From positions 186,001 through 250,000 of the forward strand of contig CANNAC010000003.1 of NCBI GenBank assembly GCA_947502495.1: a stretch of 64,000 nucleotides of DNA, read 5' to 3'. Origin of the DNA: an uncultured Flavobacteriaceae bacterium (lineage in GTDB: Bacteria; Bacteroidota; Bacteroidia; Flavobacteriales; Flavobacteriaceae). The stretch's first letter is position 1, and every line of letters begins with the position of its first letter. Shown here one piece after another: positions 2,301 through 10,179 of the stretch. The notes under the pieces were generated by a model. The model did no database searches and was not told the DNA's origin. It saw only the letters and a list, made by a program, of their open reading frames with translations. Position numbers and translations under genes: made by a program.

Positions 2301-2420
2301 AGATGCTTCGCTGCGCTCTGAAGGACAGAATTTGAATTTTCATTCAGAAGGATGCCAGAAGAGTTGTTAGCGTTATCATTTAGAAGGAGGTACGATGGTA
2401 ATCGAATAATAGAAGCATCT
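2301..2420. repeat. Degenerate copy of the 7.6-8.7 kb palindromic repeat family
   Basis: The outer arms AGATGCTTC (2301-2309) and GAAGCATCT (2412-2420) are perfectly complementary. Bases 2301-2326 are the reverse complement of a diverged left half of the repeat units at 7596-8653. Bases 2341-2365 and 2375-2420 resemble the reverse complement of the right half. Compared with the array, both stem arms differ at the paired position (T-A in the array, G-C here), so base pairing is kept. This fills much of the 2059-2511 gene-free stretch, where no coding sequence is visible. Confidence 0.6.
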
Positions 2421-2511: not shown

Positions 2512-3699
2512 ATGGAAAAAGAAAATAAAAGCGATGAATATTATGCTTTAAAGCGAACTTTAGATAAAATATATTTTTCTGAAAGATTTAAATCTAATTA
2601 CGATAAAGAAAAGAAACCAAGAAGGTTTGCTCATAAGATTTTAGATGATCAAAGGAATGAGTATTTGCTTAAAGATGAAATAACTATTGGTTGTAATTCA
2701 AATGGTAATAGGCAATTAAAAGCACTTTTTCTTGAAGATGACAGAAGGATTGCAAAATTAATTATTCAACAATTTGGAATTAACAATAATGTAATAAAAA
2801 ATAAAGCTCAAGAAGTTTCATTTCATGGGTCAGATGTAGAGCGATTATATTTGTTTTTAAAAGGGATTAAAGAAGTAGATTTTCCAAATAAAAACACATT
2901 CAATATTAAGGATTCCGAATTAGCTAAGATGTTAATTAATAAAGAACAAGCAACTCAATTAATTGAAGATAACTTTGATATATTTCAAGATGCATTAAAG
3001 AATAATATTACCTCAAAAGATTTGATAAACTTTGGATATAGAAAAGTACAATTAGAAATTTTTGAAAGATTATTAAATGAAGATGGTTTTTTCGAGCAAT
3101 ATAAAACGGATTTAAATGAAGTATCAAATGAAGGAGTTTGGCAAAAATTCTTTGAAAAAAACACATGGATTTTGGGTTATGGGCTTGATTACGTTTTTAA
3201 TTCCGAACTTGAATCTAAAAAAATGGAACAAATAACATCTGGTTCTAATGTTTATGCGAAAGGAAAAAGAACAGATGCTCTTTTAAAATCTTTGGGTGCG
3301 ATAAATTCTTTATGTTTTTGTGAACTTAAACTGAGTACAGATCATCTTCTAAAGAAGGTCAAAAGTCCATATCGTGGTGAGTCATGGCAGATTTCTGATT
3401 CTCTTTCAGGAGCAATAGCTCAAGTGCAAAGAACTTCACATAAAGCAATAAAAGAGTTTGCTTCTAAAACAGAAATGAAAGATGAAGAAGATAATCTTAC
3501 AGAGGAAAATCTGTTTTTGTATAATCCAAAATCTTTTATTTTAATTGGAAATTTAAATGAATTTATTGTTGAAGGAAAAATTAATGAAATGAAGTTTTCT
3601 TCATTTGAAATGTTTAGAAAAAATTTAAGAAACATTGAGATTTTAACTTACGATGAATTATACCAGAGAGCTTATCATATATGTTATAATAAAGAATGA
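2512..3699 (+). CDS. sduA: Shedu-type anti-phage nuclease (SduA/DUF4263 domain)
   Basis: The protein has 395 residues. Its C-terminal part (about 205-330) matches what is known of the Shedu/DUF4263 PD-(D/E)xK nuclease domain. A WQKFFEKNTWILGYG segment is followed by candidate catalytic residues D255 (KRTDALL), E271 and K273 (CELK), then Q304 (AQVQRTSHK). Residues 1-200 are a variable region without a recognised fold, as expected for sensor parts of Shedu proteins. Shedu acts as a single-gene system, which fits the absence of defence partners here. It stands alone between a minus-strand two-component system and a convergent exporter gene. The anti-phage function is inferred from the family. 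Confidence 0.8.
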   Translation: MEKENKSDEYYALKRTLDKIYFSERFKSNYDKEKKPRRFAHKILDDQRNEYLLKDEITIGCNSNGNRQLKALFLEDDRRIAKLIIQQFGINNNVIKNKAQEVSFHGSDVERLYLFLKGIKEVDFPNKNTFNIKDSELAKMLINKEQATQLIEDNFDIFQDALKNNITSKDLINFGYRKVQLEIFERLLNEDGFFEQYKTDLNEVSNEGVWQKFFEKNTWILGYGLDYVFNSELESKKMEQITSGSNVYAKGKRTDALLKSLGAINSLCFCELKLSTDHLLKKVKSPYRGESWQISDSLSGAIAQVQRTSHKAIKEFASKTEMKDEEDNLTEENLFLYNPKSFILIGNLNEFIVEGKINEMKFSSFEMFRKNLRNIEILTYDELYQRAYHICYNKE

Positions 3700-6233: not shown

Positions 6234-7475
6234 ATGCAAGCTTTATCTATATTAAAATCGAAAAAAATAACTCCAGAACAAGTATTTATGCTAAGTGTAT
6301 TAGCAGTAAATGGAGGTAATTATTTGTACAATCTTATTTTAGGTCGTGTATTAGGTCCAGCACAGTTTGCAGATGCAGCGGTGTTAATTACTTTTTTATT
6401 AGTGCTATCTTTTGTAGCGATGACCTTTCAATTAGTAACTGCAAAATTTTCAGTGGTTTTTGAAAACGATACGTTTAAGAATTTTGTCTCCAAGATTTAT
6501 AAAAATGCAACGATTGTTGGATTGGGATTGGGTGCGTTAATCATTGTATTTGCAAACCAACTACAAGTCCTTTTTAATACATCGTCTTCTAGCATGTTTA
6601 CCATTTTTGGAATTGGAGTGCCTTTATACTTTTTAATGAGTGTGAATCGCGGTGTGTTTCAAGGGAAAAAAGAATTCAAATCTTTATCGATTACCTATCA
6701 AGCCGAAATGTTAAGCAGATTAATAATCACTTTAGCTTTAATCTTCTTATTTGATATACAATCTTCGGTGGTGATTGCAATTGGTATTTTAATTTCTTTC
6801 GGATTTGGATTAGTGCCTTTTAAATTTAAAAATCTAAACTTTAAAAAGACGATTGCTATAGAAGCAAACCAGTCGAAACAAGTAAGAAGCTTTTTTATCA
6901 TTACAGCCTTTTACGAGTTCACACAGATTATAATTAACAATAGTGACATCTTATTAGTGAAACATTACTTTGATGCGTACGAGGCAGGATTATATGCTTC
7001 ATTAGCCTTAATAGGTCGTATTGTTTACTTCGTAGCTTGGATGTTTGTGATGTTGCTATTACCAACAGTCGTTCAGCTTAAAAAAGAAGGAAAAGAAACC
7101 GCGCCAATTTTATTTAAATATGTTGGTTACATCGCAGCAATTGCAACAGCAATCGTAATTGGTTGTGCATTGTTTCCAGAAACTGCAATTACTATATTAT
7201 TTGGAGATAGCTATTTAGCCATGGCGCCACTTTTATGGAAATACGCTTTAGCAACTGGTTTGTTCGCTATATCCAACATCTTTGCGTACTACTATTTATC
7301 CTTAGACAAGTTTGTTCCTGTAGTAATTTCGGGAGTCTTCGGAATGCTTCAAATGGGATTAGTTATCTTTTTTCACGATAGTTTAGAACAAGTAGTGCAC
7401 ATGCAAATTGTAGCAATGGTTTTATTGTTAGTAGTGCAGATCTTCTTCTTCGTTTTGAATACGAAACGTAAGTAA
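6234..7475 (+). CDS. Wzx-like polysaccharide flippase (MOP superfamily)
   Basis: The 413 residues are almost entirely hydrophobic helices (about 11-12 segments). They begin with the NYLYNLILGRVLGPAQF segment seen in oligosaccharide flippases of the polysaccharide_synt family. A short charged C-terminus (NTKRK) ends the protein. It probably moves lipid-linked or nascent sugar across the inner membrane. It follows the STAS gene with a short gap. The next gene downstream is the repeat-embedded GIY-YIG gene, so this transcript appears to end here, although no hairpin terminator other than the repeats is visible. Confidence 0.8.
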   Translation: MQALSILKSKKITPEQVFMLSVLAVNGGNYLYNLILGRVLGPAQFADAAVLITFLLVLSFVAMTFQLVTAKFSVVFENDTFKNFVSKIYKNATIVGLGLGALIIVFANQLQVLFNTSSSSMFTIFGIGVPLYFLMSVNRGVFQGKKEFKSLSITYQAEMLSRLIITLALIFLFDIQSSVVIAIGILISFGFGLVPFKFKNLNFKKTIAIEANQSKQVRSFFIITAFYEFTQIIINNSDILLVKHYFDAYEAGLYASLALIGRIVYFVAWMFVMLLLPTVVQLKKEGKETAPILFKYVGYIAAIATAIVIGCALFPETAITILFGDSYLAMAPLLWKYALATGLFAISNIFAYYYLSLDKFVPVVISGVFGMLQMGLVIFFHDSLEQVVHMQIVAMVLLLVVQIFFFVLNTKRK

Positions 7476-7595
7476 TAAAAAAAGAATTTTATATTATTAG
7501 TCTATATAAAGGAAAGGGCTGTGGTTTTATACTGCAGTTTTTTCAGTTTATAGCATTTAGTTATTTAGAGTCAATAGGTTAGTTAGAGCAAACTT

Positions 7596-7883
7596 GTCAT
7601 TCCGAGCACAGCGAAGAATCTAAATAAAGAAAAGTGAATATAGAAAAGAGATTCTTCCGTCATGCTTCCTTCTGAATGACAACATCGTTTATATTTAGGC
7701 CTCATAATGTTTTCAGAGCCACTATGTCATTCAGAGCACAGCGAAGAATCTTTAATAAATCAAACTATATTTTCAAGTTGAGATTCTTCCGTCATGCTTC
7801 CTTCTGAATGACAACATCGTTTATATTTAGGCCTCATAATGTTTTCAGAGCCACTATGTCATTCAGAGCACAGCGAAGAATCT
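7596..7883 (+). repeat. Palindromic repeat array, left block (units A, B and half-unit C)
   Basis: Unit A is 7596-7680, unit B is 7726-7812, and a left half (C) covers 7858-7883. Each full unit has outer arms GTCATTC(C/A)GA and TCTGAATGAC and inner arms AAGAATCT/AGATTCTT, with an asymmetric internal bulge and an AT-rich loop. A and B have different loop sequences. The 45-base spacers at 7681-7725 and 7813-7857 are identical. Half-unit C ends about 40 bases before the GIY-YIG start. Bases 7476-7595 show nothing else recognisable. Confidence 0.9.
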
Positions 7884-7922
7884 CAAAGATGAAAAACATA
7901 ATATTTTTATTTATATTGAAAC

Positions 7923-8228
7923 ATGAAAACAAAAGGCTCACACAATTATTATGTCTACATACTAACCAATAAGAATAAAACAGTGCTTTATACAGGAGTA
8001 ACAAATAATCTAGCCGAGAGATTATATTTTCATAATAATCCACTTCCTTTTTCAAAAGCTTTTACAGCTAAGTATAAATGTTCTTATCTAATTTATCACG
8101 AACATTTTTTTGAGATTGAAGATGCAATTAAAAGAGAAAAACAAATTAAAGGAAAAAGTAGAGCAAAAAAGGATTTGCTAATTAATTCCTTTAATCCGGA
8201 TTGGACTTTTTTGAATGCTAGCATTTAA
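7923..8228 (+). CDS. GIY-YIG endonuclease, small single-domain, inside the repeat array
   Basis: The protein has 101 residues and one GIY-YIG domain of the UvrC-N/YhbQ-like type. Motif residues are VYI at 11-13, YTGV at 23-26, R33, H37 and the metal-binding E72 (KREKQIKG). No DNA-binding module is fused to it. The gene is bounded by half-unit C on the left and full unit D on the right, and it splits the exopolysaccharide locus. The family is annotated as a nuclease, but no cellular role is firmly known. The position among palindromes suggests a link to repeat maintenance or mobility, which is an inference. Confidence 0.85.
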   Translation: MKTKGSHNYYVYILTNKNKTVLYTGVTNNLAERLYFHNNPLPFSKAFTAKYKCSYLIYHEHFFEIEDAIKREKQIKGKSRAKKDLLINSFNPDWTFLNASI

Positions 8229-8288
8229 TAAAAAATATTTTTCAAACCGATTTGTCTTTCATAGCATTATGTCATTTAGAGCGAACTT

Positions 8289-8653
8289 GTCATTCCGAGC
8301 ACAGCGAAGAATCTAAATAAAGAAAAGTGAATATAGGAAAGAGATTCTTCAGTCATGCTTCCTTCTGAATGACAACATCGTTTATATTTAGGCCTCATAA
8401 TGTTTTCAGAGGTATTATGTTCAGCAGAAAGAATTTGTCATTCCGAGCACAGCGAAGAATCTAAATAAAGAAAAGTGAATATAGGAAAGAGATTCTTCCG
8501 TCATGCTTCCTTCTGAATGACAACATCGTTTATATTTAGGCCTCATAATGTTTTCAGAGCCACTATGTCATTCAGAGCGCAGCGAAGAATCTTTAATAAA
8601 TCAAACTATATTTTCAAGTTGAGATTCTTCATTCATGCTTCCTTCTGAATGAC
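8289..8653 (+). repeat. Palindromic repeat array, right block (units D, E, F)
   Basis: Unit D is 8289-8373, E is 8437-8521 and F is 8567-8653. D and E have the A-type loop and F has the B-type loop, so E-spacer-F (8437-8653) is a near-copy of A-spacer-B (7596-7812). The spacer at 8522-8566 is identical to those on the left, and the one after D keeps the first ~38 bases. The 13 bases just before D also resemble those before A. The GIY-YIG gene is thus flanked by near-identical direct copies of about 217 bp. Bases 8229-8288 carry only a short partial repeat (from 8271). Confidence 0.9.
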
Positions 8654-8685
8654 AATATTATAAATAGTAAAACGACATCTTCTTA

Positions 8686-8793: not shown

Positions 8794-10014
8794 ATGAAAC
8801 TAGCAATCGTAACCGCATATCCACCAAGCAAAGTAACCTTAAACGAGTACGCTTACCATTTAGTAAAGCACTTTAGACAAAAAGAAAATGTTACTGAAAT
8901 TGTTTTACTTACAGATAAAACGGAAGGTGCAAAAGATATTGCTTTTACAGAAAACGGTTGCAAGATTACAGTGAAAGAATGTTGGGCATTTAATAGCTAC
9001 ACAAACATTATAAATGTGACTAAAGCGATTAACAATACACAACCAGATGCCGTGTTATTCAACTTACAATTCATGAAGTTTGGAGACAAAAAAGTAGCAG
9101 CAGCTTTAGGCTTAATGTTACCATTAGTTTGTAAGCTGAAAAAGATTCCAAATATTGTGTTATTGCATAATATATTAGAAGAAGTAGATTTAGGTTCTGC
9201 AGGATTTACAAGCAGTAAAATCTTGCAAAAAGTATATGGTTTTATAGGAACTAGCTTAACAAAGTTAATCTTACAAGCAGATACGGTTGCAGTAACGATG
9301 CAAAAATATGTGGACGTTTTAGAGAAAAAATACAATGCTACAAATGTGACTTTAATTCCGCATGGAACTTTTGAAATCTCTGAAGAAAAACCAGAATATA
9401 GCTTACCACAAGGACCATTACAAGTGATGACTTTTGGGAAATTTGGTACTTACAAAAAAGTAGAAGGTATGATTGAAGCGGTGGAGAAAGTAAGAGCCAC
9501 TACAGGATTAGATTTGGAGGTTGTTATTGCAGGAACCGACAACCCAAATGTACCTGGTTATTTAGCAAAAGTACAAGAAGACTATAAGCATGTGTCACAA
9601 GTACGTTTTACAGGTTATGTAGAAGAATATGAAGTGCCAACCTTATTTAAAGAAAGTGCCGTAGTCGTATTTCCATACACATCAACAACAGGAAGCTCGG
9701 GTGTTTTACACCAAGCAGGAAGTTATGGTAAAGCAGTAGTGATGCCAGATTTAGGAGATCTTGCTTTATTAGTAAAAGATGAAGGTTATAAAGGAGAATT
9801 TTTTGAGCCAACTTCTGTAGAAAGTTTAGCAAAAGCAATTGAAGCTATTGTAACCAATGAAGCACACCGAATTGCTTTAGGAAAAGCAAACTATGAAGCT
9901 GCAACAGCATATCCAATGGAGAAAATTGCAGATATGTACGTATCCCATTTTGATAGAATTATAGCTAAAAAAACACCTCAGAGTAAAAATGCATTAAAAC
10001 CTACTAATGCATAA
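8794..10014 (+). CDS. GT4-like glycosyltransferase of the exopolysaccharide locus
   Basis: The protein has 406 residues with the GT-B fold. The N-terminal half has the sugar-acceptor pattern (IVTAYPPSK). The C-terminal half (about 210-390) is the Glycos_transf_1 domain with TFGKFGTYKKVEG, RFTGYVEEYEV and the nucleotide-sugar loop SSGVLHQAGSYGKAVVMP. The canonical ExxxxxxxE motif is modified: Gln stands where the second Glu is usual. It lacks membrane helices and is probably a peripheral inner-membrane enzyme that adds a sugar, perhaps mannose given ManA in the locus. It has its own predicted LytTR-type promoter. Confidence 0.8.
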   Translation: MKLAIVTAYPPSKVTLNEYAYHLVKHFRQKENVTEIVLLTDKTEGAKDIAFTENGCKITVKECWAFNSYTNIINVTKAINNTQPDAVLFNLQFMKFGDKKVAAALGLMLPLVCKLKKIPNIVLLHNILEEVDLGSAGFTSSKILQKVYGFIGTSLTKLILQADTVAVTMQKYVDVLEKKYNATNVTLIPHGTFEISEEKPEYSLPQGPLQVMTFGKFGTYKKVEGMIEAVEKVRATTGLDLEVVIAGTDNPNVPGYLAKVQEDYKHVSQVRFTGYVEEYEVPTLFKESAVVVFPYTSTTGSSGVLHQAGSYGKAVVMPDLGDLALLVKDEGYKGEFFEPTSVESLAKAIEAIVTNEAHRIALGKANYEAATAYPMEKIADMYVSHFDRIIAKKTPQSKNALKPTNA

Positions 10015-10120: not shown

Positions 10121-10146
10121 AGATTCTTCGCTTTGCTCTGAATGAC
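10121..10146 (-). repeat. Solitary half-unit of the palindromic repeat
   Basis: AGATTCTTC followed by GCTTTGCTCTGAATGAC is, on the minus strand, the left-half motif of the 7596-8653 repeat units with a few changes. It lies alone in the 10015-10179 gap between the convergent GT4 and hydrolase genes. It may serve as part of a termination structure. Confidence 0.7.
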
Positions 10147-10179
10147 AAAAAAATAAGAATCAAAAACGAACTAAAAATA

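Follow-up and report, generated by a model that had tools for sequence, protein, structure and literature searches.

Solo GIY-YIG nuclease genes between tagged palindromes: a candidate mobile element and a possible enzyme for CGTC/TGTC-tagged REP repeats

A short array of REP-like palindromes in the genome of an uncultured Flavobacteriaceae bacterium (GCA_947502495.1) surrounds one small gene for a GIY-YIG nuclease, and the locus raises the question of whether this nuclease is the enzyme that moves the repeats. We analyzed the window, a stretch of 64,000 nucleotides (contig CANNAC010000003.1, positions 186,001 to 250,000), together with homologous loci elsewhere. Our preferred reading, to which we assign a probability of roughly 0.6, is a REPtron-like mobile element with a solo GIY-YIG nuclease as its only enzyme, the nuclease being what moves the repeats. 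The window would then probably hold a relic-rich copy, made of gene-less units plus one copy of the gene. The first-pass annotation had described five full palindromic units and one half unit around a single GIY-YIG gene, as well as solitary units at 2301 and 10121; all of these were recovered, the solitary units both on the minus strand. The features are as follows.

2301..2327, minus strand: solitary diverged head, 2 mismatches
6234..7475, plus strand: left neighbor gene, polysaccharide biosynthesis protein (host context)
7595..7681, plus strand: full palindromic unit 1, with TGTC-tagged head, spacer and inverted tail ending in GACA; single-stranded DNA fold z -2.97
7682..7724, plus strand: 43-bp spacer, first of three exact copies
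7725..7813, plus strand: full palindromic unit 2, between two exact 43-bp copies
7814..7856, plus strand: 43-bp spacer, second exact copy
7857..7883, plus strand: half unit, head only (TGTC...AATCT), the left tagged repeat of the gene
7923..8228, plus strand: solo GIY-YIG nuclease gene, 101 aa, PF01541 match
8288..8374, plus strand: full palindromic unit 3, nearest palindrome 3' of the gene
8436..8522, plus strand: full palindromic unit 4
8523..8565, plus strand: 43-bp spacer, third exact copy
8566..8654, plus strand: full palindromic unit 5; single-stranded DNA fold z -4.04
8794..10014, plus strand: right neighbor gene, glycosyltransferase group 1, anchor for the empty-site comparison
10121..10147, minus strand: solitary head, 0 mismatches

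The full units run from TGTC to GACA over 87-89 bp each, and all five are head-to-head pairs with the tags on the outside. Their stem starts with ATTC and is interrupted after 4 bp, a form that a gapless inverted-repeat scan missed, and their tails read CTA or CTT. Three units folded as single-stranded DNA all exceeded their shuffles in stability (z -2.97, -4.88 and -4.04). The flanking copies of about 217 bp noticed at first pass are indeed nearly identical (215 of 219 bases), with coordinates that had been one base off (7595-7813 and 8436-8654). The half unit reported just 5' of the gene occupies 7857-7883, ahead of a gene start at 7923; the next palindrome on the 3' side is the full unit at 8288, and no matching right half unit was found immediately 3' of the gene. 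With at most 3 mismatches allowed, the 4.07-Mb genome has 12 copies of the 27-nt head, eight of them inside the window, and the head pattern read backwards, used as a control, had no match in the same 4.07 Mb. The repeats around units (43 bp in the window, about 61 bp in the related genome G005) were considered as target duplications and dropped, being expected of any tandem array. Rfam returned two matches at the array, both far under gathering scores, and no family reached its own; a known structured RNA was rejected on these scores as the identity of the array. A gene for SduA, of the Shedu anti-phage defense, is present at 2512-3699 (PADLOC SduA, E 9e-127; Pfam SduA_C, 95 bits), and is preceded, at a distance of about 190 bp, by the solitary palindrome at 2301.

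The palindromes fit a repeat class that is already described. In the account given by PMC3733652, REPs of the CGTC-tagged superfamily carry an unpaired tag CGTC, often TGTC or CCTC, followed by a stem of 8-9 bp that starts A-T, a loop of 4-5 and a tail close to CCA, and they occur mostly as head-to-head pairs with the tags outside. That account names Bacteroidetes, Neisseriae, A. lipoferum, S. meliloti and N. aromaticivorans. CGTC-tagged REPs are among the most frequent small repeats in Alphaproteobacteria and Neisseria. PMC3733652 states, as of 2013, that CGTC REPs appear to be without a dedicated transposase, and leaves open whether they are extinct or borrowed. The repeats studied here share with the superfamily the tag (TGTC in the window), the A-T stem start and the arrangement in head-to-head pairs, and the initial suggestion of a new type of element does not stand for the repeats themselves. 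The published stem of 8-9 bp and loop of 4-5 fit the alphaproteobacterial and neisserial loci, but not the short interrupted stems of the window. A second difference concerns the gene: the superfamily as PMC3733652 describes it has no associated transposase gene, whereas the loci analyzed here have a GIY-YIG gene between the repeats.

Following that description, we inspected homologues in a plasmid collection, in which one search matched 33 records and another 21; from these we retrieved 13 loci, including two from Sinorhizobium that are nearly identical. Paired flank repeats scoring at least 36 were present in 10 of the 13. Flanks tagged with CGTC were found in Azospirillum, Neisseria, Rhizobium, Shinella, Sphingobium and Novosphingobium. 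The gene of Azospirillum lipoferum lies between sufB and sufC, with CGTC-ATCCCCGC-GAAG-GCGGGGAT-CCA pairs on either side that have the stem of 8-9 bp and the loop of 4-5. Novosphingobium aromaticivorans and Sphingobium present perfect inverted repeats of 29 and 31 bp starting with CGTC, and the flanks of Rhizobium and Shinella read CGTC...CCA. Those of Neisseria gonorrhoeae read CGTC-ATTCCCGC...GCGGGAAT; the Neisseria CGTC form is equated with dRS3 in PMC3733652. A weak repeat pair accompanied the Aeromonas locus, and no flank repeats were found at the plasmid-collection loci of Photobacterium and R. tumorigenes. The flanks of Sinorhizobium read CCTC...CCA. At the Sinorhizobium loci L310 and L312, GIY-YIG genes are flanked by double-palindrome units of about 115 bp, which we take to resemble RIME1. 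The link between GIY-YIG genes and palindromes spans Bacteroidota, Alphaproteobacteria, Neisseria, a cyanobacterium and Bacillota MAGs, and the restriction to flavobacteria that had been supposed falls with this distribution.

The window gene is assigned to GIY-YIG by Pfam (PF01541, 57.7 bits against a cut-off of 22.6). The only other Pfam match of this ORF, T5orf172, remained under its cut-off, and no DDE, HUH or serine/tyrosine recombinase was found in it. Among the columns invariant in all 16 aligned homologues are Y12, Y23, G25, R33, H37 and E72; the conserved Tyr, Arg, His and Glu are presumably the GIY-YIG active-site residues. By sequence, the closest solved structures are single-domain UPF0213 proteins (PDB 1zg2, E 1e-16; 1ywl, E 1e-11), and the GIY-YIG enzymes Slx1 and UvrC score weakly against the profile. 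A phage origin was rejected, the phage collection having no match at 1e-5. The host genome itself has 13 matches to PF01541, eight of which resemble the window protein. Other solo GIY-YIG genes in this genome adjoin other palindromes, namely TTGTCAGTTCGAGTGA in arrays at C3:478676, GTCATCCTGAACTTGTTTCAGGATCT at C1:522820 and TGTCAGCCTGAGCGCAGTCGAAG at C1:52036, a pattern that suggested the rule that each gene has its own palindrome.

Bracketing was measured with a motif-free test in which the upstream flank of each gene was aligned to the reverse complement of its downstream flank and scores of at least 28 were counted. Among relatives, 40 of 62 gene places reached this score, against 165 of 3,782 cross-paired flanks (median score 31 for true pairs and 18 for mixed pairs). 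The direct orientation also reached 28 in 29 of the 62 places, because many loci are tandem arrays. The named genomes contributed 80 loci, 77 of them usable after three were dropped for short flanks, mainly from Bacteroidota with additions from Calditrichota, Chlorobiota, Elusimicrobiota, Gastranaerophilales, Clostridia and Bacillota MAGs. Inverted flank repeats scoring at least 28 were present at 45 of these 77 loci and at only 1 of 81 control small ORFs from the same loci; mixed pairs reached the score in 1,087 of 5,852 cases, since loci have palindrome types in common. A search directed at the tag gave a concordant picture, with a TGTC-tagged hairpin within 200 nt of 103 of 189 GIY-YIG genes, compared with 1 of 29 Y1_Tnp genes and 9 of 240 background windows. 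This strict hairpin test found none at the remaining 86 of the 189 genes, in part because many stems fall short of the required length or are interrupted, those of the window among them. Because the motif was itself derived from these loci, most weight goes to the motif-free test and to the controls with Y1 genes and background windows. Enrichment of 8-mers near the genes was diffuse and pointed to pieces of the palindromes. We conclude that the association of GIY-YIG genes with palindromes is real, wide and specific. Of the proposal that a REP-like family is tied to GIY-YIG rather than to a RAYT, the preferential adjacency is strongly upheld (45/77 versus 1/81; 103/189 versus 9/240), while the confinement to flavobacteria and the novelty of the repeat are not.

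The ends have a common form, consisting of a tag (mostly TGTC), a hairpin starting A-T, then C and usually T. Directly behind TGTC, a stem of at least 5 bp follows 137 of 334 tags near the genes, compared with 6.7% when the halves of different loci were mixed and 8.2% of 2,920 far tags. The first two stem positions in these hairpins are A in 125 and T in 124 of the 137, and the base after the hairpin is C in 119. There are 31 different stems, such as ATTCT/AGAAT, ATTTC/GAAAT, ATTGC/GCAAT and ATGCC/GGCAT: the stem sequence varies between lineages and pairing is kept, which is covariation. A weaker excess of pairing is also present behind CGTC (26/121) and AGTC (21/131), and tails in the whole set are mostly CT plus any base, with CCA in 10. 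Stem type was then compared with the GIY-YIG tree; of the 189 genes, 91 had an intact frame of 80-150 aa and a hairpin, and a stem type seen at least twice was present in 80 of these. The tree required 39 changes, whereas 300 shuffles required 53.3 on average and never fewer than 47, a difference to which host kinship contributes.

Two loci provide minimal elements, each with one ORF whose stop codon abuts the right repeat. The Kaistella element (L200) has 27-nt inverted repeats that are 96% identical and measures about 390-400 bp; the element of a Clostridiales MAG (L266) has perfect 32-nt inverted repeats within 396 bp. The single L200 hairpin is weak by energy, with a stability not above that of shuffles (z 0.78). 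At a further locus (L313, in G155), a short GIY-YIG gene is bracketed by an inverted repeat TTGCGCCTCGATACGGGCTGTGCCCTACTCGGCGGCCG without the TGTC tag, perhaps another lineage of ends.

Comparison of occupied and empty sites bears on movement. Matching the window site with that of related strains, a check raised by the first-pass annotation, gave a mixed outcome. In G004, next to a glycosyltransferase that is 99% identical, the gap is 321 bp long and contains no gene and no unit; G003 has units and a gene that is 99% identical, and G001 and G002 retain degenerate pieces; G005 has the array without the GIY-YIG gene and, genome-wide, 13 heads and no short GIY-YIG gene. These differing states indicate that the array predates these species, and gene loss and gain are indistinguishable at this site. 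A clearer case is the E2 gene, which holds an element in G000 only, where it is enclosed by two perfect 40-bp direct copies; this 40-bp sequence is single-copy in six relatives. In this insertion 9 extra bases lie between the left copy and the element, which has no TGTC tag at either end. The enoyl-CoA hydratase junction is occupied by one element type in G000 and G001 and by another in G002, G003 and G004, the G004 gene being broken, and by gene-less pairs in G005 and G006. Two further gaps and the trpB|trpA junction also differ among relatives, some having an insertion there and others an empty site. In G092 a 481-bp stretch holding the element recurs at two unrelated sites with 94% likeness, and the common stretch extends 75 bp past the right repeat. 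A scan for target duplications scored 44 of 129 elements at 24 or more, mostly tandem arrays, and one was accepted (L059). The pair L286/L287, at two sites of G177, places a GIY-YIG element inside a repeat of about 608 bp that is 93% alike; its common ends (TAAC...GTTA) look, as we judge them, like integron attC sites, and the pair was not counted as a transposed copy. That element may travel as an integron cassette.

Alongside the observed bracketing of genes by palindromes, covarying stems, occupied and empty sites and one long target duplication, we infer how the repeats are recognized, cut and transferred, and that the nuclease rather than another enzyme is the mover. A complete element would measure about 400 bp and comprise a tagged palindrome, a single ORF of some 100 codons and an inverted copy of that palindrome, each end carrying CGTC or TGTC, a hairpin beginning A-T and a short C-rich tail, and the ORF stop could abut the right palindrome. 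Gene-less palindrome pairs, the window units included, would be its non-autonomous, REPIN- or MITE-like form. The predicted targets of the nuclease are tagged hairpins from its own lineage, whether single-stranded, cruciform or duplex, with a nick placed in the tag or close by. The segment released in this way, which may or may not include the gene, would be copied or pasted into short intergenic gaps, sometimes making a target duplication of about 40 bp, and arrays may be built by tandem duplication of unit plus spacer. Such an element would resemble the REPtron, with its RAYT and REPINs, in having a small gene bracketed by inverted tagged palindromes and gene-less pairs elsewhere, but the REPtron has an HUH Y1 transposase and a GTAG tag in place of GIY-YIG and (T/C)GTC. 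With IS elements and their MITEs it shares inverted ends, one ORF and short non-autonomous forms; it differs in its size of about 400 bp, its hairpin ends and an ORF outside the known transposase classes.

The main rival holds that the palindrome pairs move independently, and that the GIY-YIG gene encodes a free-standing homing endonuclease: its product would cut CGTC/TGTC REP dimers, and repair of the break would copy the gene into them. It would look alike, and we consider it unlikely though serious. GIY-YIG is a classic homing-endonuclease domain, and several bacterial members of the GIY-YIG cluster reside in mobile elements according to PMC1564403. Many genomes have repeats without the gene, and a single junction can hold differing elements or gene-less units across relatives. 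The reuse of junctions by different elements may suit homing, yet dispersed sites occur too. Free-standing homing genes resemble the genes studied here in catalytic domain, in being small and solo and in occupying intergenic gaps, but these genes lie between matched inverted palindromes that have dispersed gene-less copies. The gene recurs exactly between such repeats, its stop abutting the right one; the stem type tracks the nuclease tree; and the E2 insertion brought its own repeats into a site that has no full dimer in six relatives. All three points argue against homing. If the gene homes into REPs instead, its location between them is still explained.

Co-occurrence across genomes was assessed in 148 Bacteroidota genomes by comparing the head pattern of one palindrome type with the presence of a GIY-YIG homologue. 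Both were present in 39, the gene only in 29, the repeat only in 17 and neither in 63 (Fisher p 8e-6, phylogeny ignored). The co-occurrence asked about at first pass is positive by these counts, although several repeat-rich genomes have no short GIY-YIG gene. The 17 repeat-only genomes have no homologue at 1e-10; among the 10 of these that were checked, eight had GIY-YIG frames that were all at least 517 aa and two had a gene of about 128 aa without tagged flanks. In this comparison, short GIY-YIG genes were no commoner with repeats (2/10) than in repeat-free genomes (4/14). Repeats can therefore outlast a resident nuclease or exist without one.

A RAYT or other transposase could move the palindromes with the GIY-YIG gene as a passenger, and Y1_Tnp is indeed present in the host genome (2 weak matches) and in 18 of 24 repeat-bearing genomes examined. 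We judge this very improbable: tagged hairpins accompany only 1 of 29 Y1 genes, Y1_Tnp matches are missing from 12 of the 21 relatives that have a GIY-YIG homologue, and no RAYT flanked by CGTC units is reported in what PMC3733652 says of the superfamily. Five of the 10 repeat-only genomes checked also had no Y1 match. A 185-aa Y1 transposase gene does lie among palindromes at L123 (host genome, C9:21318) and at L124; these palindromes are of a different sequence, CGCGGATTTGCAATCCGTG, and form with the host Y1 gene a RAYT-like system separate from the GIY-YIG one. Y1/RAYT was rejected as the main partner, its genes lying by other palindromes or by none of the tagged type.

Also very improbable, in our estimation, is that the palindromes are host RNA signals, such as terminators or mRNA-stabilizing hairpins, and that the small genes merely occupy the same intergenic gaps. 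The elements sit between co-oriented genes, and PMC3733652 places REPs mostly behind genes and regards many as probably transcribed, both in line with such a role; control small ORFs at the same loci have no such repeats (1/81), close relatives differ in presence and absence, and no Rfam family reached its gathering score in the array. The least probable reading, a domesticated remnant whose nuclease once moved repeats and has since taken on a host task such as cruciform trimming or the resolution of REP arrays, draws on insertions kept at the same junctions in several relatives and other genera and on the structure- or damage-specific enzymes Slx1 and UvrC, but patchy presence, several broken GIY-YIG copies and a species-specific insertion with a target duplication look selfish.

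Returning to the nuclease as mover, we give about even odds to the wider proposal that solo GIY-YIG nucleases are the missing mobilizing enzymes of the whole CGTC/TGTC-tagged REP superfamily in several phyla. On that proposal, an autonomous transposable element of about 400 bp would work with a hydrolytic GIY-YIG nuclease alone, recognizing a structured, lineage-specific hairpin end without need of RAYT or DDE enzymes. Both the repeats and the REPtron architecture were already known; a search of titles and abstract starts, with most subscription papers and bioRxiv outside its scope, found no publication reporting this association of GIY-YIG and palindromes. A gene that recurs between palindromes, with a palindrome type that tracks the gene tree, is a concrete candidate for the missing CGTC-REP enzyme. 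If the proposal is true, transposition would be added to homing and repair as a process driven by this nuclease class, the element being among the smallest that are autonomous, and many small genes annotated as 'GIY-YIG nuclease family protein' would gain a function.

Two further loci are recorded for their setting. At L320 (G070:C14), three short GIY-YIG genes occur in about 1.6 kb, with repeats that resemble tRNA fragments (GTTCGAATCCTACTCGCGGAGCC). On a Planktothrix plasmid (L309), a palindrome-flanked GIY-YIG gene lies between a gene for an MmeI-type restriction enzyme and the DISARM gene drmA.
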